Positions 3,428-20,200 of a stretch of DNA of 21,911 nucleotides are shown piece after piece. The notes under the pieces were generated by a model that was not told the DNA's origin, searched no databases, and was given only the letters and a program-made list of their open reading frames with translations. The translations under genes were made by a program, and so were the position numbers. Numbering within the stretch: the first letter of the stretch is position 1; every line of letters begins with the position of its first letter. This DNA comes from a virus, in IMG/VR virus record IMGVR_UViG_3300047510_002822, positions 1 through 21,911 of that record; one strand, given 5' to 3'.

Positions 3428-3858
3428 TGTTTTAATCCTTTTTCTACTTCTGCGGCTACTACACGATTCCGCAATTCTGTTGTTGAAAAACTGTGTTGGC
3501 GCCTGTTGAAATAAAATTCAATTCCTTTAGCAATACATTCGTACTTTCCAGTGAATTCTTTTTCTTGATATTCATCTCCTAATATTCTAACAGTAATAGG
3601 ATAAGAAAGCAAGATGTCTACTAATTCTTTTTCAGTAGAATAGGGGATTACTTCGTCGATATACTTGCAGGCTTTAAGTTGTACGAATCTTTCAAATACA
3701 CTTTGTACAGGCTTGTTTTTTTCTGTCGGTCTATCTATAGTAGGATCTGTTTGTAAACCTACAATGAGATAGTCGCATTGTTTTTTGGCTTCTTCTAACA
3801 TCAAAAGATGTCCGGCATGAAACAGATCAAAGGTTGAGCAGGTAAATCCTATCTTCAT
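3424..3858 (-). CDS. TagD-like cytidylyltransferase / nucleotidyltransferase
   Basis: This is a HxGH-superfamily nucleotidyltransferase of 144 residues resembling glycerol-3-phosphate cytidylyltransferase. The MKIGFTCSTFDLFHAGH start places the HxGH motif at residues 14-17. The conserved GDEY is at 94-97, and the C-terminal nucleotide-binding signature (RRQHSFSTTELRNR) is at 119-132 with its STT at 125-127. It would transfer a nucleotide from CTP or ATP to a phosphorylated alcohol or sugar; the natural substrate cannot be read from the sequence. I prefer the ATG at 3858, which overlaps the stop of the MazG-like gene (ATGA) and puts the first beta strand at the N-terminus. An in-frame ATG at 3885 would add nine residues inside the MazG gene. 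It could act in surface-sugar or lipid modification, or in cofactor metabolism. Confidence 0.85.
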   Translation of the reverse strand: MKIGFTCSTFDLFHAGHLLMLEEAKKQCDYLIVGLQTDPTIDRPTEKNKPVQSVFERFVQLKACKYIDEVIPYSTEKELVDILLSYPITVRILGDEYQEKEFTGKYECIAKGIEFYFNRRQHSFSTTELRNRVVAAEVEKGLKQ

Positions 3859-4265
3859 AGGATATCCATTTCCGGCGAGATCCATCCATTACCGTTATCT
3901 TTAGAAACAAAAGGTTTTAAGTTAGGAGGTTCCCAGCCCAATGGTTTGAGAACTTTACCATCTTCACGTTTACGAACTTTGCCTGTTTCTTTGTCAATCT
4001 TGGCAAAGTTAGTACGCATTACTTCTTTCCAGGCGCCTTCAGCGTCTGCACCCATAGAATGAATAGTGCCGATGGTAACAACAAGAATATCTATTAGTGC
4101 ATCTAACGTTTCTACTTTGTCATTATTATCAACAGCTACGGCTAATTCTCTATGTTCTTCTTGAATGAGTTTAAGATACATATTGAATTGATCTTGATTG
4201 AATGTGTCGGTGCTTTGATCACAGGCTCTCATGAACTTTTCTTGATCTCTAAAAGCATTGGTCAT
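3855..4265 (-). CDS. mazG: MazG-like nucleotide pyrophosphohydrolase
   Basis: This 136-residue all-alpha pyrophosphohydrolase belongs to the MazG / phosphoribosyl-ATP pyrophosphatase-like superfamily. It is expected to cleave nucleoside triphosphates to monophosphate and pyrophosphate with Mg2+. The metal-binding pattern is visible as EEHRE at 36-40 and ETLDALIDIL at 52-61 (E52, D55, D59). The C-terminal part with KVRKREDGKVLKPLGWEPPN is a familiar phage version of the family. AAGGAAA precedes the ATG, overlapping the stop of the 79-aa gene. The downstream cytidylyltransferase starts inside its stop codon. In cyanophages MazG has been proposed to alter host nucleotide pools; the substrate here is unknown. 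Confidence 0.88.
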   Translation of the reverse strand: MTNAFRDQEKFMRACDQSTDTFNQDQFNMYLKLIQEEHRELAVAVDNNDKVETLDALIDILVVTIGTIHSMGADAEGAWKEVMRTNFAKIDKETGKVRKREDGKVLKPLGWEPPNLKPFVSKDNGNGWISPEMDIL

Positions 4266-4274
4266 TTGATTTCC

Positions 4275-4514
4275 TTAGGACTTTAGAATGTTAATAATAC
4301 GCTTCTTTTCTTGTTCTTGCAACCAGTCTTTTTCCAACTGGCCGAAATCAGGAGCATCGTTTATTGATTGGTCTATGATATTTTTAAGAATGTATAATTC
4401 TTTTTTGAATTCAAAAGAAGTGAAACCGTCGTTATATGCACTGTTACATTCTCTTGATAGGGAATGTATCTGGTTGACTATGTCAGCCAAATCCCAACTC
4501 TTTTTTAATCCCAT
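4275..4514 (-). CDS. Hypothetical helical protein (79 aa)
   Basis: This 79-residue protein is predicted by eye to be mostly alpha-helical, with regularly spaced hydrophobic residues (VNQIHSLSREC, then LYILKNIIDQSI) and a charged C-terminal helix (LEKDWLQEQEKKRIINILK). There is no signal peptide or membrane segment. The ATG at 4514 overlaps the stop of the co-chaperonin gene (TAATG), so the two are probably coupled. The stop codon region supplies the Shine-Dalgarno of the MazG-like gene. I do not recognise it. Confidence 0.75.
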   Translation of the reverse strand: MGLKKSWDLADIVNQIHSLSRECNSAYNDGFTSFEFKKELYILKNIIDQSINDAPDFGQLEKDWLQEQEKKRIINILKS

Positions 4515-4912
4515 TATTTTATAAAATCTTCTGGGCGTATAGTTGTACTGGATCCGTGACCAAATTCTTGTCCTATGTAGGCATCATTGGGTCTTTCGTC
4601 AGCAACGGCTAGAATACTAGAAACTTCTACCTTTTGAATCTCTTTCTCACTGTCACCGTCGTTGATTTTTATTTTTCTGGTCCAACGACCGTGTTCTATC
4701 AAGATCCATTGACCTTCTTTGATATCTTCTTGCTTGGGACCTACTTTGTATACTTTACCCCATCTAGGTTTAACACCGTGAGCCTTACCGTCATCGCTTA
4801 GAATTACGATACCACCCATAGTTGTTTGTTCTCCCAGATCCATATCTGTGATGATTACGTCATCGTGTAACGCACGAATTTTTATATGTTTTACATCGTA
4901 GGCAGTGACCAT
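4514..4912 (-). CDS. GroES-like co-chaperonin, T4 gp31 analogue
   Basis: This 132-residue protein aligns by eye with GroES along about 105 residues. IRALHDDVIITDMD (12-25) corresponds to GroES RPLHDRVIVKR. EQTTMGGIVIL (28-38) is the mobile loop with the GGIVI hydrophobic anchor that contacts GroEL. GKVYKVGP (52-59) and VSSILAVAD (97-105) are the following strands. The last 27 residues, ending GHGSSTTIRPEDFIK, form an extension not found in GroES. In T4, gp31 replaces GroES so that GroEL can fold the capsid protein; the same role is likely here. AGAGGT lies before the ATG at 4912, next to the stop of the 76-aa gene. The family call is confident; the specific substrate is inferred. Confidence 0.9.
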   Translation of the reverse strand: MVTAYDVKHIKIRALHDDVIITDMDLGEQTTMGGIVILSDDGKAHGVKPRWGKVYKVGPKQEDIKEGQWILIEHGRWTRKIKINDGDSEKEIQKVEVSSILAVADERPNDAYIGQEFGHGSSTTIRPEDFIK

Positions 4913-4914
4913 AA

Positions 4915-5145
4915 TTACCTCTTGTTACCTCGAGATCCCAATTCTTCTTTGATTGCTCTAGGATTATTTTTATAATAATCTTGTAGAATTTCTTCTCTAG
5001 TTTTAACGACTTTACCACCGGTTCCGATGATATCCCCGCGAGCATTCATTTTAGCATTTCCTACAGCAGGTTCTTTTTCATTTTTAAGAGCTAGCTTTTC
5101 TAGATCAACTTCTTTGCCTCGCATACTTGTGTATGATTTACCCAT
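4915..5145 (-). CDS. Conserved small phage protein (76 aa)
   Basis: This basic, hydrophilic 76-residue protein begins MGKSYTSMRGKEVDLEKL. It has a glycine- and lysine-rich centre (NARGDIIGTGGKVVKTREE, about 35-53) and ends EELGSRGNKR. It has no membrane segment and little hydrophobic core, so it may be partly disordered or work as part of a complex. I recall similar small proteins in T4-like marine phages but cannot assign a function. A strong AAGGAG, formed by the end of the upstream DnaE-like gene, precedes the ATG at 5145. The co-chaperonin gene follows with a two-base gap, so an assembly or virion role is possible. Confidence 0.8.
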   Translation of the reverse strand: MGKSYTSMRGKEVDLEKLALKNEKEPAVGNAKMNARGDIIGTGGKVVKTREEILQDYYKNNPRAIKEELGSRGNKR

Positions 5146-5146
5146 T

Positions 5147-5617
5147 TTATATCTCCTTGAAGAATTCTTCTATTGGTAATTTGTATTTAACACTGTCTAT
5201 CCTGTGTACCCCTATCAAATAGAGTACATAACTAGCTACGCTCGAACCTCGCCCTACACCCCAGACTATATTGTTAGCACGAAGTGTGTCAACTATATAT
5301 TTCATAGTTTTTAACATAGGAATCATATTGTATTTGGCAAATAATCTAAGTTCTTCAACTACTCGTTCTTTAGTTTCAGGAGTAGGGCAACGTTGGTATA
5401 ACCAATCTAAAATATCCATCGTTTGGTATTTCTCTGGAATAAACCAATTTGATGGATCGATACTAGCTGGAGGGATTGGATAACTTAAATGCTCTTGATA
5501 TACTCGATCTATATATTTCTCGAGATCGTCAGAACAGAGACAATGGTCTAGGATTTCTGGACCATGTTTTAGTATGCCTTTGATTAATTGTTCTTCAGTG
5601 TTAATTTCAGTCCACAT
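5147..5617 (-). CDS. DnaE/PolC-like nucleotide-binding fragment, lacking catalytic aspartates
   Basis: This 156-residue protein has a C-terminal half resembling the palm of bacterial DNA polymerase III alpha. At about 118-128 it reads VWGVGRGSSVA, like the DnaE VGPGRGSxxGS loop. It continues with YLIGVHRIDSVKYKL and EEFF, matching the DnaE run ITDxDPLxYxLLFERF. A helical stretch before it (LRLFAKYNMIPMLKTMKYIV) also corresponds to DnaE. The protein stops where DnaE carries its PDFDxDF catalytic aspartates, so it cannot be a polymerase by itself. The frame is intact, the start overlaps the upstream gene by 11 bases, and the stop region provides the next Shine-Dalgarno. This suggests a functional small protein rather than a pseudogene. 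It may bind nucleotides or DNA ends, but its role is unknown. Confidence 0.75.
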   Translation of the reverse strand: MWTEINTEEQLIKGILKHGPEILDHCLCSDDLEKYIDRVYQEHLSYPIPPASIDPSNWFIPEKYQTMDILDWLYQRCPTPETKERVVEELRLFAKYNMIPMLKTMKYIVDTLRANNIVWGVGRGSSVASYVLYLIGVHRIDSVKYKLPIEEFFKEI

Positions 5618-5840
5618 TAATTAGTTGATCCAAGTCAGTATCAGTTTGTCCTTGATTTTTTCTAAGATATCTCTTAGACATCTCTTCTCTATATATTGTA
5701 ACAAACGTACCTAATTGTGTCAACAGGTCAGTCTTACCTAATCTTGCTGCTGCGTGGTATTTTTTGGTAACTTCTAACAGCTTAGATTCTACTTCAGAAT
5801 CCTTTAGATCGGATAAGTCATTGACAAATGGATGAAACAT
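5607..5840 (-). CDS. Conserved small helical phage protein (77 aa)
   Basis: This 77-residue protein starts MFHPFVNDLSDLKDSEVE. It is followed by helical sequence (LLEVTKKYHAAARLGK, LLTQLGTFVTIYREEMSKR) and an acidic, disordered-looking C-terminus (GQTDTDLDQLINVD). I have the impression that it is conserved in T4-like marine phages, but I know no function. It follows the 204-aa structural gene with one base between the stop codon and this ATG. Its end overlaps the DnaE-like gene by 11 bases. There is only a weak Shine-Dalgarno, so it probably depends on coupling. It is the first small gene after the structural cassette. Confidence 0.78.
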   Translation of the reverse strand: MFHPFVNDLSDLKDSEVESKLLEVTKKYHAAARLGKTDLLTQLGTFVTIYREEMSKRYLRKNQGQTDTDLDQLINVD

Positions 5841-5841
5841 A

Positions 5842-6456
5842 TTAACTAAAGCTACCTAGATAATTTAGGAAAATATTATCAGAATCGTGTTGCCAAACTT
5901 CTATAATTACAGGATTGGTTTTTGATGTTAATGTAATTTGAGGACTAGCACCTACTACCGGAAAAGTAGCATTTTTCTTAAAAACAGTACCGCCTTCTGT
6001 GGTAAAGATAATCGTTTTATTTTCCGTGGCTGCTGTATCCAAATATATCTCTAAGGTTATCTTGCCAACTCCTGATACAACATTAGTATCTGGATCGTCT
6101 AAGGTAGGAAAATTTCTAAATACTAGATTTGAGTTTTCTTGTATACTTACAATTTGATATTGTCCTTGCTCAAAATCTATTTCCCTATTAGCTGATGTTA
6201 CAACTATCTGTCGTTTTCTAGTGATAAAATTTTGAGTATAAGCTTCATTTAAGAGTTTATAGTTAAAGCTATTGTCAGTGTCTGTCTTAGCTGTATTTTC
6301 TAGTAAGTCAGACAGCTCTCTATTAGCTTCGTAGAGTCCGTTATAAATGGTATCAAAGTTATCTCTAAATGTCTGTGTGTCGTTGTCCTGTCCTGCTACA
6401 GGAAAGTTCACATCAATATTATAAATGACTCTGCTGGTTGTTAGTCTTTCTGTCAT
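5842..6456 (-). CDS. Putative virion structural / short fibre protein (204 aa)
   Basis: This 204-residue, beta-rich protein has the hallmarks of a small tail-associated structural protein. Residues 26-41 read DTQTFRDNFDTIYNGL, a divergent version of the NF.EL motif that starts the other fibre genes in this window. A helix (EANRELSDLLENT) and then repeating beta strands with many T, N and V residues follow to the end. There is no signal peptide or membrane segment. The ATG overlaps the stop of the 920-aa gene (ATGA) with GGAGA upstream, and a TAAATAC box lies about 34 bases upstream inside that gene. It may attach to the tail or baseplate through the N-terminal motif. A specific position in the virion cannot be given. 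Confidence 0.75.
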   Translation of the reverse strand: MTERLTTSRVIYNIDVNFPVAGQDNDTQTFRDNFDTIYNGLYEANRELSDLLENTAKTDTDNSFNYKLLNEAYTQNFITRKRQIVVTSANREIDFEQGQYQIVSIQENSNLVFRNFPTLDDPDTNVVSGVGKITLEIYLDTAATENKTIIFTTEGGTVFKKNATFPVVGASPQITLTSKTNPVIIEVWQHDSDNIFLNYLGSFS

Positions 6457-9215
6457 GGTAATTTTTCTCCGCGTTGTGGGAACGCAAGGTATTTATTCTC
6501 TATCTCACCCTCTAAAACGTCAATTAGATAACGATCAGCTGTGAAATCTATTTTTTTGAAATCAAAGCCATTGGCTTTAATTCTGCTAATAATATAGTCC
6601 GCTCTACCCGATTTAGCATAGCAAAGTACTAGAGCTTTTGTATAACCTAGCTCTACCGGTGAAGTAATTTGAGTAGAACGCATCCAAAGAGGTAAAAAAT
6701 CTCTATCTCGATCTCCAACTGATCTAATTCGCTTCCTCATATTTTTTATTGAATTTGGAAATAACCGCTGATGATCACTGTCGCTGACAAACGGTATGTC
6801 GCTGTCTACTTTAATAGCATCATAGCTAATAAGCACTTTGCTGTTTATGTTATCGGGTAAGTTAATAGTGTCGCTGATACTAATTCCGCCTTCTTCAAAT
6901 TCATCTACAATTTCTACATATATTGCTTCGTAGACAACTTCTTGAGTAGTAGGATCTTTAGCCAGGGCCTTTTTTATTTCACCGAACCTAATCTGTTTTC
7001 TATAATGATTTCTGCTCATTGCCTGCACAAACTTTACCGCATCTACACTTTCTATCCCTGCAAACACCAATACTTTTATTTCCGATTGAACTCCGAAATT
7101 AGAATCACCGTACCTATAGATATCTTCTATTTTGAAAATATTGGCATCCGTGATAAAGTTAAACCAATTCAATCTATTTAACTTGGACTGCAAAGCGACC
7201 ATGTATAGGTTGGCAAATGTTTTTTGATTATCGGCTACAACAGTAATAGAAAATTCTTTGATAGATTCGGCGTAATTGGCTGTATCCCTGGCTTTAACTC
7301 TGAAAGTAAATTTCTTATCAAAAGTCGTAGTCTCATCATCGAATGTAGTGGTGTAAGCACGTGATCCTGTAGAACTATCTTCGTTGACATTTATACTATC
7401 AGTACGTTCGTAGAATCGAGTAAGACCAGTAATGCCGTTGTTTATATCACCGAATTGTCTAACCTTACCAACTATTAACCCAGTACCTAGTAAGTTTAAT
7501 CCTGGAGGTAAATTGCCGCTGACTAATTCATAGATCGCTAAATTTCCGTATAATAAACTATTTGCTATTAATTGTTTTCTGCTAGGCTGATTAGGTTTAA
7601 TAGTTCCTAAATCGCCGTCAGTAACCCATTCGATAGCACTTTCTATTTCTCCTATGATATCTATAGTAAATGTTTTTTCTGCTGTAGAAACACCTAATCG
7701 CCAGTAGTCTGTCGAAACGTCCGGAATTTGATTTTGATTATCTGAAATAGCCACATAGATAAAACCTTCGTACCTTACAGATTCACCTTCGAAATACGTA
7801 GAAGTCCCGTCCCAGTCTCCTTGAAGAGTTGATTCTGTAAGGTCAGCAGGGAAATTTACAGCCAACATTGTGAATTTATAAGTCTTGGTAACTGCTGACT
7901 GATAAGGAATCTTACCCGCTAGGTCACCTGATAGACTATCTAATGTTAATCCAGGAGGAAATATACTGTCTGTTTCTTTCTCAGTTACAGTCCAGTAGGA
8001 CGGACTGGGAGCCGTGAATTTTCCTAGCTGTGTGTTTATTAATTCGTTTGACCAATAGGAGCCTTCTATCGGAGTTTGATTCAAATGATTTGAAATACAA
8101 ACCCAGGTTAATCTGTTATAAATTACAGCATCCCCTACTTTGTAATTAATGACACTCGACCAATTACCTTTTAGGTTATAAGTGAATTTAGGCAATATGT
8201 CTGAAATTTCGTATTTCCCGTCAGTGATGGTTTCCCCAGTTTCTTTTAAGATGTAAGTACCAGGATTAGTATCAGATTTATAATAAACTATAGTTCCAGT
8301 GAATTCAGCAGGATCGTATACATCTAAGAAAATTGTTAGATAATTATTAGCCCTTCTACGACCAAGATACCCTGGAGTGATCCATTGAGGTACACGGTCT
8401 CCTGCTGAGTCTGCTCTGAATAGATTAGTATCTACTTGAACTATGCTGTTGTCTGCTCTAAGAAATTCTTCAGTTACTACATAAATTTTAAAAAGTCTTC
8501 GAATTTCATTGCGCCCATCTGTTGCAGAAACTACAAAAGCGTATGGTCGACTGATACGTCTTGGAGCTCTAACTGGTTCATTATAATCAAAAGTTACGGC
8601 ATCATAAAAGTAACTATCAAATCCGTTAGACCTAGCTTGGGGAACATCTAACGGTAGCACATCAAATGCGCTGGTATCGTAGGCGCCTGTAGGGTTTTCG
8701 CTATATTCTACAGCGAAGATAGGATCAGTAAATCCGTATATTCTTCCTTCAGCGGTAAGAGTCAATCCGGGAGGTAGTTCCCCACCATTAGGAATTAGAT
8801 AGTATTCTAAGCTATCTCCGGCTATTTCGTCAGTGTCTCTGGCTTCTAATTGAAAATCAATATAGCTGTTATCTAAAGCATAGTAAGCTTCGCCTTGTCC
8901 AACCTGTAGAAATCCTTCCTCAGTAATCCATCGGGGTGCGTCTGAGCCATCTATAGATATAGAAAATGTTCTATCTTCAAGATCGGAAGAATCTCTAGCT
9001 CTGATTACAAATCTACTTTCTGTAAATTTTCTTACTTCTGTGGGAGTTCCAACAATAGCAGATCCGCTAAGTCGTAGACCTCGTGGCAATGATCCTGAAA
9101 TCACTTCAAACGATACAGCTCCAACATCTGATGATGCCTGTAATTGTACAGATATTGTCTGTCGTTCTTGAAAAGTTCCTAAACTGCCAGCTGCCGTTGT
9201 CCAGGATATGGTCAT
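6453..9215 (-). CDS. Large virion structural protein with Ig-like and chitin-binding-like modules (920 aa)
   Basis: This 920-residue structural protein contains at least four copies of a putative-Ig (He_PIG / cadherin-like) motif of the type LPxGLxL...GxIxG, near residues 43-58, 145-160, 417-432 and 567-582. Most are followed by a strand pattern ending in RARDS or similar. Two modules at about 347-388 and 462-503 have the pattern W...Y..GD.V.Y...W/Y.....N....P....YW, like carbohydrate-binding family 5/12 (chitin-binding type 3) domains. The last 220 residues form a different mixed alpha/beta domain containing FLPLWMRSTQI and ALVLCYAKSGRADYI, which I recall from structural proteins of T4-like marine phages. 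AAGGAG lies 5 bases before the ATG at 9215. The modules suggest surface glycan binding with a C-terminal virion attachment domain; this is inference. Confidence 0.8.
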   Translation of the reverse strand: MTISWTTAAGSLGTFQERQTISVQLQASSDVGAVSFEVISGSLPRGLRLSGSAIVGTPTEVRKFTESRFVIRARDSSDLEDRTFSISIDGSDAPRWITEEGFLQVGQGEAYYALDNSYIDFQLEARDTDEIAGDSLEYYLIPNGGELPPGLTLTAEGRIYGFTDPIFAVEYSENPTGAYDTSAFDVLPLDVPQARSNGFDSYFYDAVTFDYNEPVRAPRRISRPYAFVVSATDGRNEIRRLFKIYVVTEEFLRADNSIVQVDTNLFRADSAGDRVPQWITPGYLGRRRANNYLTIFLDVYDPAEFTGTIVYYKSDTNPGTYILKETGETITDGKYEISDILPKFTYNLKGNWSSVINYKVGDAVIYNRLTWVCISNHLNQTPIEGSYWSNELINTQLGKFTAPSPSYWTVTEKETDSIFPPGLTLDSLSGDLAGKIPYQSAVTKTYKFTMLAVNFPADLTESTLQGDWDGTSTYFEGESVRYEGFIYVAISDNQNQIPDVSTDYWRLGVSTAEKTFTIDIIGEIESAIEWVTDGDLGTIKPNQPSRKQLIANSLLYGNLAIYELVSGNLPPGLNLLGTGLIVGKVRQFGDINNGITGLTRFYERTDSINVNEDSSTGSRAYTTTFDDETTTFDKKFTFRVKARDTANYAESIKEFSITVVADNQKTFANLYMVALQSKLNRLNWFNFITDANIFKIEDIYRYGDSNFGVQSEIKVLVFAGIESVDAVKFVQAMSRNHYRKQIRFGEIKKALAKDPTTQEVVYEAIYVEIVDEFEEGGISISDTINLPDNINSKVLISYDAIKVDSDIPFVSDSDHQRLFPNSIKNMRKRIRSVGDRDRDFLPLWMRSTQITSPVELGYTKALVLCYAKSGRADYIISRIKANGFDFKKIDFTADRYLIDVLEGEIENKYLAFPQRGEKLP
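6489..6497 (-). promoter_or_regulatory. Candidate late promoter inside the 920-aa gene
   Basis: The minus strand reads AATAAATAC here, the same box as upstream of the 177-aa gene. It lies within the last codons of the 920-aa gene. T4-like geometry would start transcription near 6484, giving a leader of about 27 bases for the 204-aa gene. The codons it overlaps (N-K-Y) could also produce it by chance. Confidence 0.35.
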
Positions 9216-9224
9216 TAATACTCC

Positions 9225-9815
9225 TTAGATCAACGGTGCTGCGACCGTTCCGAAATCTACAGATATCCTACTAGGAATTGGAACAGTTCCGAAATCAATA
9301 TTAGATGCAGATAAATTAAATTGCACGACACTGTCGTAGTCGTTGGACACTGGTCCAAAATCAACATTTCTTAAAATGTTAGTTACTGGTAAGTCAGTAT
9401 CTATAGTGATAACATTGTTTGCAGCGGTAACACTTATATTATTACCACCTTGCATGGTTAAAACTGTGTTTGCCGAGACGCTAGTTCCGCTAGGTACTGC
9501 AGATGCTATACCGCTTTCAGTTATAACTTTGGTAAATGCATCTGGAGTGTTATTTGAAATTACAACAGTATCTGAAGTTGATGAAAGTAAGATCTTGTTA
9601 TTTCCAGCAATTAATTTTTTAAATTCTAGATTAAGACCATTCTTTTGTTTAAAAATGCCTTCACCGTTTACAGTTTCTGGTATGTTTTTTCCTGTAACCG
9701 ATAGTTCTGCATCTAATGACGAGAAGTTTGCATTGACCTTTTGAAACGCTGACCGTAGATCATCGCCTAGGCCATCATTTACCACGTTTCCGATATTAAT
9801 TGTTTGTATAGTCAT
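9225..9815 (-). CDS. Short tail-fibre-like protein with shared attachment motif (196 aa)
   Basis: This 196-residue protein begins with TINIGNVVNDGLGDDLRSAF followed by QKVNANFSSL, nearly the same attachment motif as in the 378-aa and 2527-aa fibres. A beta-rich region with many T, N, S and V residues follows. The last 47 residues contain three copies of a short VDFGxV motif (VDFGPV, IDFGTV, VDFGTV). No membrane segment or signal peptide is visible. GAGAG precedes the ATG at 9815, and a GGTAAATA box lies 18 bases upstream of the start. It is too short to carry a large receptor-binding domain, so it could be an adaptor, a degenerate fibre or a small tip protein. Assignment as a fibre-family protein rests on the N-terminus and context. 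Confidence 0.78.
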   Translation of the reverse strand: MTIQTINIGNVVNDGLGDDLRSAFQKVNANFSSLDAELSVTGKNIPETVNGEGIFKQKNGLNLEFKKLIAGNNKILLSSTSDTVVISNNTPDAFTKVITESGIASAVPSGTSVSANTVLTMQGGNNISVTAANNVITIDTDLPVTNILRNVDFGPVSNDYDSVVQFNLSASNIDFGTVPIPSRISVDFGTVAAPLI

Positions 9816-9833
9816 AACACGCTCTCTTTAGTA

Positions 9834-9841
9834 TATTTACC
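9834..9841 (-). promoter_or_regulatory. Weak candidate late promoter for the 196-aa gene
   Basis: The minus strand reads GGTAAATA in the 34-base gap before the 196-aa gene. It shares TAAATA with the other boxes but lacks the following C and has GG in place of the consensus TA. Transcription would start near 9828, giving a leader of roughly 12 bases. Confidence 0.25.
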
Positions 9842-9849
9842 CTATTGTA

Positions 9850-10938
9850 TTATCTTACCCAATACCAAATAACGCCCGGGCTACCGCCATCTTGGATTGT
9901 GGCCAACCACGGTGCTGGTTCCCATCCGCCACACGAGATCAATGTTCCCCACCAACCGCCACGGAATCCATCTGTGGTCAACCAACCGTGATTGATACCA
10001 ATGCCTACCCAAGGCATACGTGCTTCCATAGCATCGTAATGATAATCCCACGTTTTATCATTGTAACCAAAGCGAGCTAGTTCTGTAATGTTCTTGCGCC
10101 AGCCAGGTGTACCTAAATGTTCATCACCCATGTCAGCACTTTCATGAGTTTGAGTAAATGAGTATGCTTCGTTGGCAGTCCAAGCACCGCCCAGTGATCC
10201 GTGTTCGCGAGCAGTGATCATAAAATCAAATCCTGTCTCTGCACGTTTGATCTTGTTAGCCCAACTTAATATGCTGTAGTTTTGTTCAACTGAACGATTG
10301 TTGTATGCAGCCAGTTGAGTAGGGCAAGTGGTAGCGTTGCGACTAAACACTTGTTCTTCTGTCCAGTTACTAATAGAATTTTGTAAAATCAATGTCCAAC
10401 CACCACCAAGTGTAGTCATATCACAATAGACTTGGAACGGATCGCCATTATTGATTGCGTCATTCTGTATCCAGTATACACTATCTTCACTGTCCGGGTA
10501 GTCTTGTTTGATCTGCCACGCACTAGTGCTGTATTCTTCTCTAGTCTTGCCGTTAGGTACGCCTAATGCTTGATTACGTGCTATAAGTTCTGCCTTTTCA
10601 CGTGCTAGAATAGTCTGTTCTTCTGTGCGTATTGCGGCAACTAATGCTGTACGATCAGTAATGCTTAATGTTTCGTAATAATCTAAAACAGTTTCGTTGT
10701 CTACAACTGCGTCAGTGTTGTTGATGGTATCCGCATTTTGCAAAGAGTCGTGTAGCGTATCAAAGTTTTCATTGACAGTATTGATAACTTCGACTAGTGG
10801 ATTAGCAGGATGTAAATCTTTTAGTTCTAATTTCTTAAATGTCATAGGATTCTCAAAGTTTTCGTTAACCGTATTAATAACTTCAACTAACGGATTAGCA
10901 GGATGTAAGTCGTAGAGTTCTATTTTCTTAACGGACAC
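9850..10938 (-). CDS. Tail fibre / adhesin with fibrinogen-type C-terminal domain (362 aa)
   Basis: This 362-residue protein opens with two tandem copies of a 23-residue module (DLHPANPLVEV plus INTVNENF) at 6-28 and 37-59, variants of the fibre attachment motif. A helical linker with many A, E and R residues follows (about 80-128). From about 138 to the end it resembles a fibrinogen-related domain: QIKQDYPDSEDSVYWI (142-157), PFQVYCDMTTLGGGWTLI (167-184), a late GGWWG and an ISCGG (335-339), ending VIWYWVR. Cysteines are at 172, 205 and 336. Fibrinogen-type domains often bind acetylated or other sugars, so this is a likely receptor-binding tip. The start is GTG at 10938 with AAAGGAAA upstream; an ATG at 10845 would remove the first module. 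It lies in the fibre cassette between the 378-aa and 196-aa fibres. Confidence 0.85.
   Translation of the reverse strand: MSVKKIELYDLHPANPLVEVINTVNENFENPMTFKKLELKDLHPANPLVEVINTVNENFDTLHDSLQNADTINNTDAVVDNETVLDYYETLSITDRTALVAAIRTEEQTILAREKAELIARNQALGVPNGKTREEYSTSAWQIKQDYPDSEDSVYWIQNDAINNGDPFQVYCDMTTLGGGWTLILQNSISNWTEEQVFSRNATTCPTQLAAYNNRSVEQNYSILSWANKIKRAETGFDFMITAREHGSLGGAWTANEAYSFTQTHESADMGDEHLGTPGWRKNITELARFGYNDKTWDYHYDAMEARMPWVGIGINHGWLTTDGFRGGWWGTLISCGGWEPAPWLATIQDGGSPGVIWYWVR
10762..10923 (-). repeat. Tandem duplication of the fibre attachment module
   Basis: Two copies of a 23-codon unit, offset by 93 bases (31 codons), encode residues 6-28 and 37-59 of the 362-aa protein. Nineteen consecutive residues are identical, yet the DNA differs at eight codons, all synonymous. 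The duplication is therefore not recent and the protein sequence has been kept under selection. Confidence 0.85.
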
Positions 10939-10949
10939 AGTATTTCCTT

Positions 10950-12086
10950 TTACCAGCTAGTGCCAGTCCACGCTACACGGACCCAAATGTCAGTGGTGTT
11001 ATTAACGTAGTTTTGTTTACAATAGTATATGTACGGGTCAGTGAATACCACCATTCCTTCTAGGTCTCCGGCAGCACCATAACTGTGTTCTGGCACAGTT
11101 CCATTGGGGAATATCATCCTGCCGTCAGGAGAAAATGTAAAAGTAGTACTGCCTAAAAGTGTTTGTGCAATAATCTCGGTAGTACCGTCGGAATTTATTA
11201 AAATTCCTCCTAGCGGCTCGAGTAATGGGCCATCTGCACCGGCGGCTCTCAACTGTATATATTTGTTAGAGGCACCCCAGATATTGGTATTACCAGCGAC
11301 ATCGCTTTCTACTCGGACTCCGCTAGGAAATGTTAGACTACCGTCATTGTCATCAAAGTGCCAAGGATACGATGGTGTGCCTATCGTAAGTATTCCGCCG
11401 GAAGCCGGCGAAAGACCAAGACCACCGGAAGTTGATATAACACTACCGCCTGGGAGTGTCAGTCCACCGTAACTATCAAATGTCCAAGACTTTAGTGTAG
11501 TTAGTGCATTAGTATTAACCACAACAGAGTCAGATGATGTAATTGCCACGGCTCCATTAGCAGATGCTATTTCAGCGCCTTGGATAATGATATTTTCACC
11601 AGATGCTACTGTTGGAAAAGTCACATATGGATTAGCACCACCAGTTAATACTACCTCCTTAGCACCAACTGCTAATTTATCAGTTGAAGAAACTAATGTG
11701 CCGTTGACTGTTAATTGCCCGCTACCGTTTACACTTAGGGGAGTTTCACCTAGATAGATAGTGTTGTTGCTGACATATAAACTCTTCCAAGGTTTAGCAG
11801 CACTACCTAAGTTACCACCGAGAGCAGTCTGTGGAACAACATCCCCGCCTACATTTAAGTCGCTAGTAACAGTAACAGCCTGGTCAATGGTGATCGCTGA
11901 ACTGTCTGTGGTGCTGATAGTGCTGCCGGTAAATTCAAATGCGCCAATATTTAAAGGAGCAACATCTAATCCTAGTGCTGTATAAAGTTCAGTGAAGTTG
12001 GCATTTACTTTTTGGAACGCAGCACGTAGGCTATCACCTTGTTTATCATTTGATGTTATGCCTACGTTAATTGTTTGCTTAGTCAT
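10950..12086 (-). CDS. Tail fibre protein with shared attachment motif (378 aa)
   Basis: This 378-residue fibre-like protein has residues 13-41 reading NDKQGDSLRAAFQKVNANF followed by TELYTALG, the best-conserved form of the attachment motif in the window. A module LGSAAKPWKSLYVSN follows at about 93-107 that is also found in the 704-aa fibre, as is the stretch FTGSTISTTDSSAI (52-65). The centre is beta-rich and dominated by G, S, T, N and V, as in phage fibre shafts. The C-terminus is distinct, with GMVVFTDPYIYYCKQNY and ending TGTSW, probably a compact tip. AAGGGG precedes the ATG at 12086, 11 bases after the 704-aa gene. It probably trimerises as other phage fibres do. Host receptor and exact position in the tail are unknown. 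Confidence 0.82.
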   Translation of the reverse strand: MTKQTINVGITSNDKQGDSLRAAFQKVNANFTELYTALGLDVAPLNIGAFEFTGSTISTTDSSAITIDQAVTVTSDLNVGGDVVPQTALGGNLGSAAKPWKSLYVSNNTIYLGETPLSVNGSGQLTVNGTLVSSTDKLAVGAKEVVLTGGANPYVTFPTVASGENIIIQGAEIASANGAVAITSSDSVVVNTNALTTLKSWTFDSYGGLTLPGGSVISTSGGLGLSPASGGILTIGTPSYPWHFDDNDGSLTFPSGVRVESDVAGNTNIWGASNKYIQLRAAGADGPLLEPLGGILINSDGTTEIIAQTLLGSTTFTFSPDGRMIFPNGTVPEHSYGAAGDLEGMVVFTDPYIYYCKQNYVNNTTDIWVRVAWTGTSW

Positions 12087-12097
12087 TTATACGCCCC

Positions 12098-14212
12098 TTA
12101 TGCCAACGCTGCTATTGCTGATTGGAATGCAGCATAACTGCCAGCTGCCGCCACCAATACTTTTAATTCTGCTATACTAATCGCAGCACCAGTTTGATAC
12201 CTAGAATCGGGGAATTGAATTTGACCGTTAGTATCAAACACCCATTCTTTCTGTGTTGGTCCAACTCCAGTAACAACTCCCACAACTCGATTTGATGTTA
12301 ATGTAACTGATTCTGTTCCAGCCCCAGAATATATAGAAATGCCAGTGTCTTTAGCCCAGTTGGAGTAAATGTTTAGCTCTTCGTTAACACCTTCTATTTC
12401 TGCAATAGCTAATCTTTTCTCAAGAATTAAATTATCTTTGAGTGTGATATTACCGTCAACTGTGATTGAAGTTTGGAATATAACTGGACTGTCAAACTGG
12501 ATGGCACTGGAATCACTAGTCGAAACAGTGCTGCCTATAAATTCCAATACACTGCTTGAAAATAGTTCGCTGGTAGCTGTGTCATACATCAATGGTCGAC
12601 CGTTGCCGGACGATCGTATTGGATTAACAAAGAATCCTGCAGCCGCAGCTTCTACTGCAACACCGCTGGCATTAAGTACAATTGAACTGGCATTTTGATT
12701 AGTAAAGCCTGCTCGGTATCCAATAGCGATTGAGTAGGCACCTTGATTAGTTTGACCAGCACTCCATCCTATGGCCACTGCTGAAGTACCTTGTGTAATC
12801 TGTGCAGCGGTATAACCTAGTGCAATTGAACCTGCGCCCTGAGTAGTTTGACCAGCAGTATAACCCATAGCAATTGAATTACTTCCTTGCGTATTATAAC
12901 CTGCTGTAGGACCAATAGCTATTGATTGCGAGCCTTGTGATATTTCTCCAGCAATGTGTCCTATTGCTACTCCGTAGGTACCCTGCGAAGTTTTACCAGC
13001 TTCAAATCCAATAGCCACTGCACCTTGGCCTTGCGTAGTTGTGCCAGCCTGATAACCAATTGCTGTTGCCCATTGTCCTTGTGTAGCACTTCCTGCAAGA
13101 TAGCCAACAGCTACAGCTAATGTCCCTTGTGTGGTTTTCCCTGCTTCTTGACCAATAGCTATTGAATACGTACTTTGGGAAGTTTTGCCAGCATCACTAC
13201 CTAATGCAATTTGAGATTCTACTGTTCGTAGTGTTGTGGCTGAAACATTGCCGTAAATGTAATTGCTGACAGCATCAACTAAGATTGAACTGTCATCGCC
13301 GAACACTGACCCTTTGAGATCAAAACTTGTAGTAGATGAGATAGTGATCGTATCAGTACCAGGAACAGTAGTGATAAAAATATTTGTACCTGCTGTTAAA
13401 GTAAGAGTATCTTCACGAACCTCAGCAACCACAGAACTTTGTCCAGTGACTGCTATAGTTCTAAAACCAAACGTGTCCGGTAAATCGTTAGTAATCGTTA
13501 CAGCACCTGTGCCTCCTACTGGACTGATTGAAATACCTGTACCTGCTGCGATACTGGTTACTCCTAGGTTAGTCAGTGTTACCTGACCCCTACCACCTGT
13601 TAGTGTTCCGCTAATTCCTATCTGTCCTGCAGTACCTACAAGCTGTGTGACACCTAAATTAGTTAATGTAACATTACCTTTGCCAGTACCGCTAACTCCT
13701 ATTTCATTAGCAGTGCCGTTAAGTTGCGTTACACCATTGTTAACAAACGTAACAGTATCTGTTGTGGCGTTGGTTGTGATATTGATATCTGTGCCAGCAA
13801 ATGTAACGGTATCAGTGTAGTTGTCTGCTGATACAGTAGTTTGACCGCTGACCGCGATGTTTTTAAAACTTGCTTCTGCAGGATTTTTTATTAATTCGCC
13901 GCCCACAGTTGATCCTGCAGGAAGATTTACAGCAGCGCCATCTGGGCTAAAAACCACTGCTCCACCTATATCGATACCGTCTGTGGTAAGATACAGTGCT
14001 TTCCATCTGTTGTCACTAGATCCTAGAAAAAATGCTCCTGATGTATTTGGACTTAAGTTACCTGCTAGGTTTTCTAAATCTACAGCACCGGAACTACCGC
14101 CGGATATAGTCAAATATAGTTCAGTGAAATTTGCATTAATTTTATCAAATGCATCGCTGACAGAGCTCCACAGTATAGGAGCCGAACCAGGAGTTATATT
14201 TTGTTGTGCCAT
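12098..14212 (-). CDS. Tail fibre protein with YadA-like 16-residue repeats (704 aa)
   Basis: This 704-residue fibre protein starts with the motif SDAFDKINANFTELYLTISG (about 18-37), a variant of the shared attachment module. Residues 85-330 are a T-, N-, V- and G-rich beta shaft with several near-repeats of GVTQLxGTAxxIGVSGT. Residues 332-507 form eleven 16-residue repeats of the type xxSIAIGxxAGxTTQG, resembling the head repeats of trimeric autotransporters such as YadA. Further along is a segment FIGSTVSTSDSSAI shared with the 378-aa fibre. The protein ends in a short alanine-rich helix (AAAGSYAAFQSAIAALA). GGAGAG precedes the ATG, whose A is shared with the stop of the 2527-aa gene. A trimeric left-handed beta-roll shaft is likely for the repeat region. 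Attachment through the N-terminus is inferred. Confidence 0.83.
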   Translation of the reverse strand: MAQQNITPGSAPILWSSVSDAFDKINANFTELYLTISGGSSGAVDLENLAGNLSPNTSGAFFLGSSDNRWKALYLTTDGIDIGGAVVFSPDGAAVNLPAGSTVGGELIKNPAEASFKNIAVSGQTTVSADNYTDTVTFAGTDINITTNATTDTVTFVNNGVTQLNGTANEIGVSGTGKGNVTLTNLGVTQLVGTAGQIGISGTLTGGRGQVTLTNLGVTSIAAGTGISISPVGGTGAVTITNDLPDTFGFRTIAVTGQSSVVAEVREDTLTLTAGTNIFITTVPGTDTITISSTTSFDLKGSVFGDDSSILVDAVSNYIYGNVSATTLRTVESQIALGSDAGKTSQSTYSIAIGQEAGKTTQGTLAVAVGYLAGSATQGQWATAIGYQAGTTTQGQGAVAIGFEAGKTSQGTYGVAIGHIAGEISQGSQSIAIGPTAGYNTQGSNSIAMGYTAGQTTQGAGSIALGYTAAQITQGTSAVAIGWSAGQTNQGAYSIAIGYRAGFTNQNASSIVLNASGVAVEAAAAGFFVNPIRSSGNGRPLMYDTATSELFSSSVLEFIGSTVSTSDSSAIQFDSPVIFQTSITVDGNITLKDNLILEKRLAIAEIEGVNEELNIYSNWAKDTGISIYSGAGTESVTLTSNRVVGVVTGVGPTQKEWVFDTNGQIQFPDSRYQTGAAISIAELKVLVAAAGSYAAFQSAIAALA
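12692..13219 (-). repeat. Eleven 48-bp coding repeats (YadA-like 16-residue units)
   Basis: Within the 704-aa fibre gene eleven 16-codon units follow each other without gaps. The consensus is xxSIAIGxxAGxTTQG. IA(I/L/M/V)G and AG are kept in nearly every unit, while the two residues between them vary (QE, YL, YQ, FE, HI, PT, YT, WS, YR). A twelfth, degenerate unit follows. The spacing of hydrophobic and glycine positions fits a left-handed beta-roll with the variable residues exposed at turns. Confidence 0.88.
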
Positions 14213-17200
14213 TATGCTCTCCCTACAGCAAGTTCAATAGTTCCAATATGATCACTGTCATAATCTGCTAGTGCCTTACCTAAAATTGTTCCTGATGATG
14301 CAGAGCCTTTGGCAGAAACAGCCACCCCTGGAATATTGCTAGTTACCATTAAATCTCCTTTGTTGACTTTGCCCACTACTTTGCAAGGAACTCGACCTTG
14401 TAACGCAATTAAATTTTTGTATCCAGGACAAGCACCGTTCATCACGTACCCTGCATTGTCGCTGATGATACCCGCTACTCTATGATCTCTTTCTTTGGTA
14501 GATACTGTAACTTCTTTGTCACCGCCAAACACCAGTACTGTTCCTACTTCATATTCTCGATCACCTTCGTAATATTCTGCTAAGTCAGCGGAATATGTTG
14601 CTTGGAATCTCGCACCAGCGTTCAAAGTCCATGTTCCCGAAACTGTAGCAGTTGATCCCGTATTACCTGCAGATAAAGAATAAACACTTACTGTACCTGT
14701 AGAAGTAACGTTTCCGCAAGTTATAGGAGCATTCGATAAACCGTTTTGAGTATAGAAAATATGAGATTCGTTGTAATATAATGTTTTCTTATCATTTGCA
14801 ACTGTGCCATCGCCTACGAATATTGCTCCCACAGATGCTCCTGAGCCGTTATAACCATATAACTGAGTATAACCTCCTGTGCCTGCACCTGTTAAGTCCA
14901 ATATAGTCTGAGCTACCGGTGTTACTGCATCGTTGTTCAGCAACAGTCTATTAGCTGTAACATCAGAAAATGCGATGTTCCCTCCGGAACTTCTTACGGC
15001 AACTGTGCTGCCAGTCGCTAGATCCGTGCCAGCGATCATTCCGTAATCCGATGCACCCGCTCCAGTTTTTCTTAAAAATCCTAAACTACTGTATTGACTC
15101 TTAAGAATAGCCCCACCCTCTTCTACTATAGTTGTGAATGCCACTGCGGCAACGTTATCTGTGCCTGCCGAGTTATTAGCCAATGCAGTCTTCGTGGTAA
15201 TCTGTTGCAGTTTTCCTGTAGGTATACCATTGGTTTTCAGTGAAGCCCAACCGTTAGTTACATCAAATTGACTGGAGTCGAATCCTGATATGCCTTTAAG
15301 AGCAGTTACTGAACCTCCCGATTCAGATCCTGTTTTTGTTCCCGCATAGGTGATTTGAGTTGCTGTGCAGGTTGATACAGTATAGATTCCATTATAACTA
15401 GGTGTACCTGCAGCAAATCCTGATACTATGATTTTCTGTCCTGCTGTGAATACCGCAGTAGTTGTTGAAGCGAACGATAATGTTACTACAGATCCAGTGC
15501 CGGTAGCCGATACTGATAAAATACTAGCTACAGATGTAGCATAAGCATTGTTTAAAGACAGTTTAGATTGATCGATAGCTGCTGCAGAATTAATCTGAGA
15601 GTTAACAATTTTATCATTCTGTACATTCAGGGTTACTGAATGAGCAGTACTATCTAGAGATAGAGTGATATCTCCGCCGGAAGATATTTCAGCATTGGTA
15701 ATAATAGATTCGGCACCGGTAAAGATAGCTAAATCACCGCCTCTAATATTGTCTAGATCAAAATCATCTATATTGGAAATAGTAAGACTTCTAAGATTTA
15801 CAGCATCTTGAGGATTTTCAGGATCGGCGAGATTAACGATCTTGTAATTAGACATTTTCAGATTGTCTGGCCCTTCCCAATCGAGTATACCACTCAGTGC
15901 TAAAAAGCCTCCTGTATTGTTAGGAATTCTTGATTCAGCGGCAACAGCAGCCCCACTTGCTGCTCTTGTACCTAATCTTCTTTCTATGTAACCAACTATA
16001 GCCGACTCTGTAGGAACAGTATCCTGTTGAGGATCGGCCATGTTGTCGTCTGTAGAAAATTCAGCGATTGTAGCTCCACGCTTAAATCCTAGACCGTCAA
16101 GATTACTCAATGCCAAAGATGCTGCAAACGTAACAGATCCAGTTCCTTGGTCAACTCTGAAATATGGTCCTACCGAGAAGTTACCAAACTGATCAGTGGT
16201 TACAAAAAACACACGACCCGAACCTCTTTCTTGTGTCTGTGCTCTAGTCACAGCGTTACCTTCTTCGTCGATGCTGGTCGCTGCGAGCGGAACACTATCT
16301 ATGCTATTCACTGCCTGGCCGTAAATTTCATTAGGATAGTTGGTGTCGGCATACGAGCCTGTACCAATATCTAACAAATCGTGAGATGTCACACGAGTAA
16401 GAGAAATCCTAATAGTCAGTGTACCTAAAGCAAAACTAGAATAAACAGGAATTCCAGCTTTTAATGTTATCTGTGAGTCGAATGAAATAGGACTTATATC
16501 AAAAGCAGGAGAAACAGTAATTAATCCGTAGAGAGTTCCTAGAGATGCTTTACTCTGATAATTGGTTATTTGATATGTGGTTCCTTGATAAACAAACTCA
16601 TATTCTGTTCCCGCCGCTATGCCGTTGTTAACTCGCTGAGCATCAAGAATCGAAAGATCTCCCACGGCCAAGGTAGTTGAGTTTTGGCCTCCTATGAGGG
16701 TACCATACACCTGTGTTCCTACTCCTGTAGTAGATACATTTAACTCAGGTTTTTCAATATTAAAGACCACAGTACCATTCGAAGGACTAGTAGAGTCGAT
16801 AGTAATCGAAGTTTCGCTGACGATAGTTAAAACAGTTGGGTCAGTGCCTAGGCTTCCTGTTGCTACAACAGTAATAGTACCTCCGCTGGCTGAAGCTACA
16901 ATAGTGCTGTTAGCATAGGTTACTGTAGTAGTTGTACAGCTTATTACAGTTTTTGTACCGTTTAAACTAGTACCACCTCCACCAAATCCACTAACGGTAA
17001 TTGATTGATTAGCTAGATATGGAGGTCGAGGCTGTTTGATAAAAGTAAGAGTAGCTAGAGTAGCGGTACTAACGCCACTTACGCTGGTGATATTTGGTCT
17101 CGAAACTAATCTATCACCAGCAGCTATATTTTCAGTACAGGCTAATCCTGTTATAGTCGTTCCTGATAATGTACCGCCTACTCCTATCAATGTGCTGTCA

Positions 17201-20200
17201 ATAGGAGGCTCATTAGAAACTTTAAAGGAATCTGCGGCTAGATCTTGAGACACTACCCAGTAATAACTATCGATACTGCCAATACCAGAAGGCAAACTAG
17301 ATCCAGTACCACTGGAATTAAATTTCAGCATAGTACCTGCCGTTAGACCGTGGGCTACTTTATTAAATACTCCAGGAGTTCCCGGAGTAACAGTATAGGT
17401 TACAAGACTACTGGGAGTAGAATAGGGTTGGGAAATATACGCACCAACATCAACATAATTATAATTTTCACGAAGCTGGGTCAAGGCCAACCCAAACGGA
17501 ATCATATATACAGTACCTGACAGAGTGATAACATCTGCAGATGTGTTCACCGGTGTTCCGCCGTCAACAGCAGAGATAGTAAATGTATAATCACTAGGAA
17601 CAGATGTTATATAATATTCAGTAGCGAAGTCCGGATCAACATCCGCATCGATTGATTCTGGAACTGTGGCTCCAGAAGTGGCCTTAATAATTTTAACCTT
17701 ATATCCTATTTGCTGTCTATGTGCAATATCTGTAGTAATCACTCCCGGATTAGCGATCGAAATTCCTGTTATGGTAAATGTATCCCCGTCGTAGGCTGAA
17801 TCGTATGCTGAAAAATCTAAAACACGATAGATGTCATTGGAGTCTGCTAGTTTAAGAGCTGTACTAGGGCGTGTAGCAACATCTACAACATCTCCTGTGA
17901 GCACAACATAACTATTCTGTCTGATAGTACATATCGCACCATTAGGAACACTGAACTGCAATCCTCCACTGCTGCTGATATTTAATTTGGTAAACTTAGT
18001 AGCTGCATTGACAATCTCCACAGTGGATATTGAATATTTTACCAATGCACCGTTGTGATTTATTTCTAATTCGGATCCGTTTAACGGATTATAATCTTCA
18101 TAATATCCGTAGATCGCAGTGCTAGCTTTTCGATTACTATACTGACTAGGAGTAGTAACCACAGTAAATCTCTGTGACAGTTTGTGGTATAAACTAACAG
18201 GAGTAGGTACTTCTAGTGGATCTGCTCCTTCAGCAACTAGAGCAAAGTTACCGTGAGAGCTAGATCCTCCGATCGATCTAATTTGTCCGCCGTTGATTGA
18301 ATAATAGGATACATGACAGTAATAGGTAAACATCGATACCGCTTCAGTTAATCCACCGTTAGTAGCGATTAAACCATAACCTAAGTCGTTGACCTGTGTA
18401 AAGTCATTGCTTAACATAGATCTATTACCAGGCATCAGCACTTCGTATATTCTTTCGTAGTTCAGTGTACCAGAACCCGTGCTAGTTATTTCTACCGGGT
18501 CACCGTCCGGCTCGTCTGAAAATCTAAATGTATTTGCAGTTTTACCACCTAACAATACATAATAGTCCTGACCGGCGGTGATACCGCTAGGTAAGACTCC
18601 GCCTGCTCCTAATGCGAATCGTATAGTCGCTCCACTTTGTAATCCATGACCTGTTTTATTGACAGTGGCTATATTTGAAGGATTAGTAAAAGTGAATGCC
18701 AGTGCACCATAAGTTAAAGAAAATGGAGTTGTTTCGTCTAATTCAAACTGTGCAGTTGATCCTGCCGGGTCAAAAATATACTGTCTGAGATAATTAATTC
18801 TATATACTTCGTCGTTGACGATAAATGAACAAGGCAGCTGCGGGGGTCTAATTAGCCCTGAGATCGCCAATCTTGTAGAAGTTATAGCATTAGTGATACG
18901 GAATTGTAGGTTACCGGTAAATCCGTCAACAAACATACCTCCACCGAATTTTTTGTAGCCGGTGCTTTTGCTGAATACAGCACCTTCTTGTGCGTACGGC
19001 GACTTAGCAAGAATTTGTCCTTCCGGGTCAAGTACCAACGCAAAACCACCATGGCCTTGCATAGTCATTGCTCTAAGTATTACAGCATCGTTACACAGGA
19101 ATACATCGAGTTCGTCATTATTTTTCGGTAAATTACTAGGAGAATTTTCAATTATATCTAGAAGAACATCTATTAATATACCTACAGCCCCACCTTGAGG
19201 TGTAACAGTTCCTCCGCTACCTGGTACATAAGCAGTAAATCCAGCGCCATTTACACTGGTAGTAAGATTAAAATCTGTATATAAATCTATTCTAGTCGGT
19301 TGATTGGCGACAGTTTTCACATAATAGGTATTGCCATTGAGATTGGTCATGCTGCCGCCGGCTATTCCGGAAATGTCTATTTTTTCTTTGTCTGCATAAC
19401 CGTGTGCTGCGGTAAAGGTTAATCTCACGGGATTGGCTTGAGATGCTGCGCTGATACTTCTTGGCAGAGCACCTGCTCCCCGTTCTGCTTGATACGCAGC
19501 ATCGGCAATCTGTGTAGCGGTGCTATAGATCTGTGACTCGTCTAATTCTATATTTTGTATAATTCGTTGAACTAGGTACTCTAATCTTTCAATAGCAGCT
19601 AGTGTTTCATCTAGCTGACTACTTATAGCTAGAGCTGCACTTTCATTATATGGGTCTCTGTACTTCAATGCAGCAGAAACAGTTCGATTATAACCTCCGT
19701 ATTTCAAATCGTATATCATTGAATCGATGATTAATCCTACATCTCGTTTACAGATTTCACTATTGTAGGAGAATGAACTAGTAAAGGGTGCTAGGTTTTC
19801 TTCTATTTGATAATCGATCCAAGATACTACTTCTGTTTGTAAAAATAATTTATTGCGGCTTAATAGTTCTGCAGCACTATTAAAAGACCCTTTATTGTTT
19901 ACTATAGGATAGATAGGACTGTCTGAATTTTCCAAATAATGATAACCGAACAGTCTGTCTGATGTTACAAGACTGTCAATGCTTCTATCTCTTCTAAAAT
20001 TTATTAATGCCCATGGGCTAGTGCTAAATCCTAATTTAGGTCTTATTATAGTTCTTCTAAATTCATCACCGATAACAGCAACGTTTTGTGGAATTTTTAT
20101 AGGTAAGTTTTCTTCATAAATACCGCTTTCTATGAACACAGATATCTGTACATTTCTAGTGATATCGCCATAGGCTATTCTTTCACCTTCTTGAAACGAA

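Follow-up and report, generated by a model that had tools for sequence, protein, structure and literature searches.

A candidate phage adhesin with an exchangeable head of predicted fibrinogen fold

Results

The FReD gene lies in a cassette of fibre genes

The window, that is the whole stretch of 21,911 nucleotides analysed, carries on its minus strand a gene for a protein that ends in a fibrinogen-related domain (FReD). The gene, its parts and its immediate neighbours are as follows.

9225-9815, minus strand: downstream short fibre gene with a gp9/10-type N-terminus, which marks a variable slot
9850-10938, minus strand: FReD fibre/adhesin gene, 362 residues; an open reading frame with orthologues of the same extent in other contigs
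9853-10524, minus strand: FReD, residues 139-362
10387-10524, minus strand: GGGWT_bact N-terminal subdomain of the FReD, residues 139-184, the sole part that profiles recognise
10525-10713, minus strand: pre-domain stretch, residues 76-138; tblastn matches begin at residue 76
10760-10931, minus strand: tandem duplicate of the N-terminal unit, KKLELxDLHPANPLVEVINTVNENF twice
10950-12086, minus strand: upstream fibre gene with a T4 gp9/10-type N-terminus (phrog_677 match, 1.7e-12)

The FReD gene starts with GTG (10936-10938, minus strand), has AAGGA a few bases upstream and stops at 9850-9852; in the orthologue from contig L012, an ATG lies one codon ahead of the equivalent GTG. Only 11 nt separate the end of the upstream fibre gene from this start. 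The family matched by the upstream gene, phrog_677, is described as baseplate wedge tail fiber protein connector, and both genes flanking the FReD gene match tail-fibre connector or baseplate families. Together with the fibre-related neighbours of window-type relatives (see below), these matches bear out the fibre-cassette setting of the original prediction.

The window encodes three further long proteins on the minus strand. One of 920 residues (6453-9215) contains putative Ig repeats (He_PIG, 8e-16) as well as two stretches matching CBM_5_12 that barely reach the Pfam cut-off (26.2 bits); homologues of this protein are found downstream of the FReD in contigs L004 and L007. A fibre of 704 residues (12098-14212) has many AIGYQAGxTTQGxGAVAIG-type repeats and a weak YadA_head match (0.018). 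The start of a giant fibre of 2527 residues (14212-21795) resembles the gp10-type motif, and its C-terminal region is partly common to L004 (49%) and L007 (44%).

The T4-type late promoter TATAAATA was absent from the window (2.8 expected by chance), scans for sigma-70 promoters and terminators gave matches no more numerous than in shuffles, and neither Rfam matches at gathering score nor tRNAs were found. The clamp loader is closest to those of PA5oct-kind Pseudomonas jumbo phages (54.6%). Contigs with the FReD head reach 354,680 bases (L160), and each of the 7 contigs checked held exactly one GGGWT match.

The C-terminal domain is predicted to adopt a complete fibrinogen fold

The open reading frame and the motifs from which a fibrinogen-type domain had been proposed (YPDS..VYWI, PFQVYCDMTTLGGGWT, GGWWG and three cysteines) are all present. 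NCBIfam NF040941 (GGGWT_bact) matched residues 139-184 over its full model (1-46) with 68 bits (cut-off 30), and Pfam Fibrinogen_C (PF00147) matched residues 151-186 with 26.1 bits (gathering 22), at model positions 15-48 of 221. A family alignment was built from the window domain and 62 distinct, full-length relatives that share 42-94% identity with it; 62 of these 63 members matched PF00147 at E <= 0.01. Top phmmer matches in the PDB were intelectins (XEEL and intelectin-1, E ~8e-5, within residues 127-186), and fibrinogen-type proteins were also matched by sequence, over the N-terminal part. When three aligned animal FReDs served as the hhalign target, 33 columns at the N-terminal end could be paired; alignments to animal FReDs that were forced to be global, or made at a low threshold, were unreliable.

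An AlphaFold2 monomer model of the whole domain, based on the 63-sequence alignment, had a pLDDT of 87.7 and a pTM of 0.90; a shallower alignment of 31 close sequences gave a pLDDT of 37.9. Using VIA-align, the model matched ANGPTL3 and angiopoietin-1 with a Z of 11.3 and an rmsd of 3.5 A (173 and 177 residues aligned of 224, respectively), tachylectin 5A with a Z of 11.2, and L-ficolin and FIBCD1 with a Z of 11.0. A Z of 8 was reached by 152 of the 381 aligned chains, and every VIA-align match listed was a FReD entry. Foldseek also picked the FReD family, with modest query TM-scores of 0.38-0.51 and rmsd values of 8.3-13.4 A (on its own alignments) among the matches listed. Intelectins were absent among the VIA-align matches listed, though present in the Foldseek list. 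Because the whole-domain model matches FReDs, the remaining 178 residues, invisible to profiles, are predicted to complete the fibrinogen fold. The fold proposed earlier is therefore upheld as a predicted one, with a positive profile search and a model that matches FReDs end to end.

The three cysteines are present in the window protein but are not a feature of the family: C34 of the domain recurs in 46 of the 63 members, the other two in 13 and 3, and 8 members have no cysteine. An interrupted FReD was seen in L238 (3873-5024, minus strand), where the matches to profile positions 1-158 and 152-231 are separated by about 80 residues.

A duplicated N-terminal unit precedes a probably helical stretch

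The N-terminus of the protein is a tandem duplication (79-nt copies, 85% identical, 93 nt apart), present as a single copy in the homologue from L086. The second repeat opens with its own ATG (10843-10845, minus strand), with GAG six bases upstream; an internal start yielding a shorter isoform is therefore possible. The corresponding methionine is kept in all 10 proteins of the window type compared (window included), the window type being the one with the tandem HPANPL repeat. When the repeat, represented by only 7 units, was compared with the gp10-type motif using hhalign, 17 columns were aligned with a probability of 6.5% and an E of 0.0057 (0.11 for the reversed control), a weak similarity that makes the repeat at most a candidate for the fibre attachment motif proposed earlier. 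Pfam T4_gp9_10_N had no match in the FReD protein at E <= 1. Residues 76-138, which are common to homologues having unrelated N-termini, are probably helical, judging from their sequence.

The head is exchanged between anchors and is itself mosaic

The FReD head is found behind several anchors: the tandem HPANPL repeat, a WNG-type N-terminus and several other short N-termini. In L081 it lies behind a laminin-G domain, and similar stretches were seen by eye in L046 and L083. On a tree of 29 close heads, 10 of them of the window type, the window-type members required 6 anchor changes, with at least 2 forced by strongly supported branches, and a single clade for them was rejected (AU p 2.1e-43). 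The window-type label was somewhat clustered on the tree (24 of 500 shuffles gave a count as low), so that exchange appears to be frequent but not free. Counting all anchors gave 10 changes, against a shuffled mean of 11.7 and with 31 of 200 shuffles reaching so low a count; here the cut contig L190 was left out, and L026 and the cut contig L323 were classed as WNG-like by hand. The count of window type versus the rest stayed at 6 with or without these adjustments. Pairwise comparisons agreed with exchange: the window and L012 are 97% identical in the N-terminus and 73% in the FReD, and the FReD of L018, which has another anchor and lies at another locus, is 93% identical to that of the window.

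The head itself consists of a conserved framework and variable segments at domain residues 50-82, 127-165 and 197-224. A PHI-type permutation test (own implementation, 144 two-state sites) gave p 0.006. Over six consecutive segments, the heads of L011 and L006 are 96, 48, 93, 98, 94 and 89% identical, the 48% being segment 50-82, which thus appears to have been swapped within the domain.

The position upstream of the downstream fibre gene was surveyed in the best 80 of 272 viral relatives of that gene (9225-9815). An upstream open reading frame was recovered at 69 loci and encoded a FReD at 11 of them (six distinct proteins). From the other 58, 47 distinct proteins were scanned after removal of duplicates and of four presumed spurious reverse-frame open reading frames; Laminin_G_3 was found in 7, T4_gp9_10_N in 7 and Lcl_C in 4. 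This slot looks like a site of adhesin exchange. The slots of L400, L401 and L422 hold YVTLAGLTWAPMTTGG-type proteins after a MLGSFTG-FKFGRRR start; these are probably the Lcl_C matches, and another exchangeable tip type. The exchange of the domain, from which lateral acquisition had been suggested, is supported by the several anchors, the clade test, the internal mosaic and the slot contents across phages.

The family has relatives in phages, animals and one bacterial genome

The phage FReD family is not new, since a protein of an uncultured Caudovirales phage (UniProt A0A6J5KYC4, 326 residues), 73% identical over the domain and with a TM-score of 0.96 of the query, is already named Fibrinogen C-terminal globular domain. 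This name is a database annotation; we found no functional study of A0A6J5KYC4, and the literature searched yielded no work on FReDs of phages. NF040941, the fibrinogen-like YCDxxxxGGGW domain, spans 46 residues and leaves the other 178 of the window domain outside its model. Animal FReDs (angiopoietin-1, ANGPTL3, tachylectin 5A, ficolins and FIBCD1) are alike in predicted fold over the whole domain (Z ~11); however, they are only 10-17% identical to the window domain among the matches listed, and their calcium, disulfide and pocket motifs are missing in the phage members. Intelectins (intelectin-1 and XEEL) are the best PDB match by sequence (profile E 5e-8), confined to the N-terminal subdomain, but differ in having longer chains (279-306 residues) and no sequence match past profile position 67.

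Across 50,697 phage records, no place covered 80% of the query. The 18 records with partial matches, over at most one third of the query, all belong to Synechococcus phages or cyanophages; a more distant member used as the query retrieved 19 phage records, none covered to 80%. Cyanophages S-ShM2, S-RIM14 and S-CAM4 have the GGGWT subdomain in common with the window, whereas the C-terminal part differs (33% or less of the query covered, ~32-35% identity). The S-ShM2 protein also matches in fold and is encoded a few genes away from one annotated as fiber.

In a scan of genome contigs that returned 40 loci, only L108, from a Bacteroidales MAG, matched the whole domain. There, a full-length FReD ends a 731-residue protein (3432-5624) with arabinofuranosidase-like and Ig-like parts; its start is signal-peptide-like by eye, the protein is probably secreted, and the product of a nearby gene carries a secretion-system sorting tail. 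An origin from bacteria of the L108 phylum was considered and set aside: among 395 genomes searched, the L108 genome alone matched, and none of the 394 others did.

Neighbouring genes differ between groups of relatives

Gene neighbourhoods were compared for 75 open reading frames distinct in their last 60 residues: 12 of the window type, 23 of the sister type and 40 others, which comprise all that are neither and include the contig-end fragments L041 and L044 and the bacterial L108. Only loci with at least 2500 bases of counted flank were kept (12/12, 23/23 and 38/40). Genes were called with a simple script, and the scanning of long proteins was limited to their last 700 residues.

Window-type neighbours (48 proteins at 12 loci) were mostly fibre related, with 13 matching the phrog_677 connector and 12 the phrog_958 baseplate wedge. 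Among the 104 proteins from the 23 sister-type loci, the commonest family was phrog_18771 (14/104), whose proteins are small and resemble holins weakly (one matches phrog_4898, E 0.0065); endolysin phrog_181 was matched by 3/104, and head closure, virion structural and baseplate wedge families by 2 proteins each. The families listed for this group (25 of 66) included one tail-fibre family, phrog_3201, with 2 proteins; the L018 endolysin matches this family too. For the remaining group, 127 of 175 proteins were scanned, two genes per side; the matches included virion structural families (8 and 7), tail fibres (at most 5 in any family), laminin-G (10), collagen (4) and Mtd_N (4).

In L018, a contig of 288,815 bases, the order over 6522-10025 is endolysin (phrog_181, 268.6 bits), a transmembrane protein (weakly Rz-like spanin, E 0.0032), a small lipobox protein, the FReD protein, a lipobox protein, an 85-residue open reading frame and a holin (PF11351). 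The order in L026 is similar, judged from sizes and first residues. The FReD of L043 has a phrog_18771 protein within two genes on each side, and L022 is alike by eye. No transmembrane segment and no lipobox were found in the L018 FReD protein.

Discussion

Our preferred reading, which we consider likely, is that the FReD protein is a virion-displayed adhesin with a swappable recognition head of fibrinogen fold, whose ligand is probably a glycan. The N-terminal module, a tandem repeat in the window lineage, would anchor the protein; the probably helical stretch would serve as a spacer; and the C-terminal domain would form the exposed recognition head, with segments 50-82, 127-165 and 197-224 contacting the host surface. 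The head would behave as a cassette, recombined with different anchors, at different loci and in different phages, and with segment 50-82 swapped inside it. The data show membership by sequence, the predicted fold, the place among fibre genes, exchange and mosaicism; we infer the incorporation of the protein into the virion, its oligomeric state, the surface exposure of the variable segments, ligand binding and any host-range role of the head.

Since two sister-type contigs encode the FReD among lysis genes, a role as tail-fibre tip may not hold family-wide. In at least part of the sister group, the protein could instead be a lysis-associated lectin, made with endolysin, spanins and holin, that binds glycans of the envelope or wall while the cell lyses or afterwards; the window copy would then have been fused into a fibre cassette at a later stage. 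The gene order of L018 and the similar one of L026, and the phrog_18771 proteins flanking the FReD in L043 and, by eye, in L022 agree with such a role. Fibre neighbours are scarce at the 23 sister-type loci, which counts against the adhesin reading. Adjacency of this kind is nevertheless less telling because in T4 itself the fibre genes 37-38 adjoin the holin gene t; moreover, the L018 FReD protein lacks both a membrane segment and a lipobox, some sister-type neighbours are virion genes, and members outside the two groups sit among virion structural and fibre genes. We regard both the lysis-associated lectin and the later fusion as unlikely. There are phage fibre heads whose role is mainly structural, and the strong conservation of the C-terminal IWYWVR strand and the WWGT motif would suit a cap or trimerisation head with no part in recognition. 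The variable segments, the internal recombination and the replacement by laminin-G and Lcl types in the slot favour diversifying recognition over such a structural part, which appears quite improbable.

The proposed recognition of acetylated sugars by the mechanism of animal FReDs was not supported. A calcium-dependent lectin of ficolin or tachylectin type that binds N-acetyl groups would be in line with the overall fold, tachylectin 5A, L-ficolin and FIBCD1 being among the best structural matches. In scans for sequence motifs, however, the calcium-loop motif DxD[NDTS]D, the C-x(10-16)-CH pair of the disulfide and the acetyl-pocket motif WWYxxC were found in none of the 63 members; there was no conserved cysteine pair either, and WWG was present in 62 of 63. 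It is on such residues that the binding sites of FIBCD1 are described: calcium on Asp393 and Asp395, and an acetyl pocket beside the Cys401-Cys414 disulfide, with a cis-peptide, Tyr405, His415, Tyr431 and Trp443 (PMC3908420). Because the motifs of the animal site are absent from all 63 members, binding of acetylated sugars is unlikely, although not impossible, and a lectin of the ficolin or tachylectin kind is the least probable of the readings weighed here. A further reading is rather doubtful: that in large environmental phages the FReD head, devoid of the animal calcium and acetyl motifs, is a mobile recognition cassette, a single scaffold with swappable segments, that passes between fibre and lysis neighbourhoods and in the latter may act during or after lysis instead of as a tail fibre.

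FReDs are best known from animals, where several are immune lectins that recognise microbial surfaces. Phages appear to deploy this fold from the opposite side, to have remodelled its binding region and to exchange it as a module, which makes one fold in immunity and infection a testable case; natural segment variants provide material for tying sequence to host surface. FReDs may well be under-annotated in phages: profiles detect 46 of the 224 residues, and the 50,697 phage records held no match over 80% of the query. A gene table for marine phage islands lists a 'fibrinogen-like coiled coil protein' with a frequency of 3 (PMC3909814).
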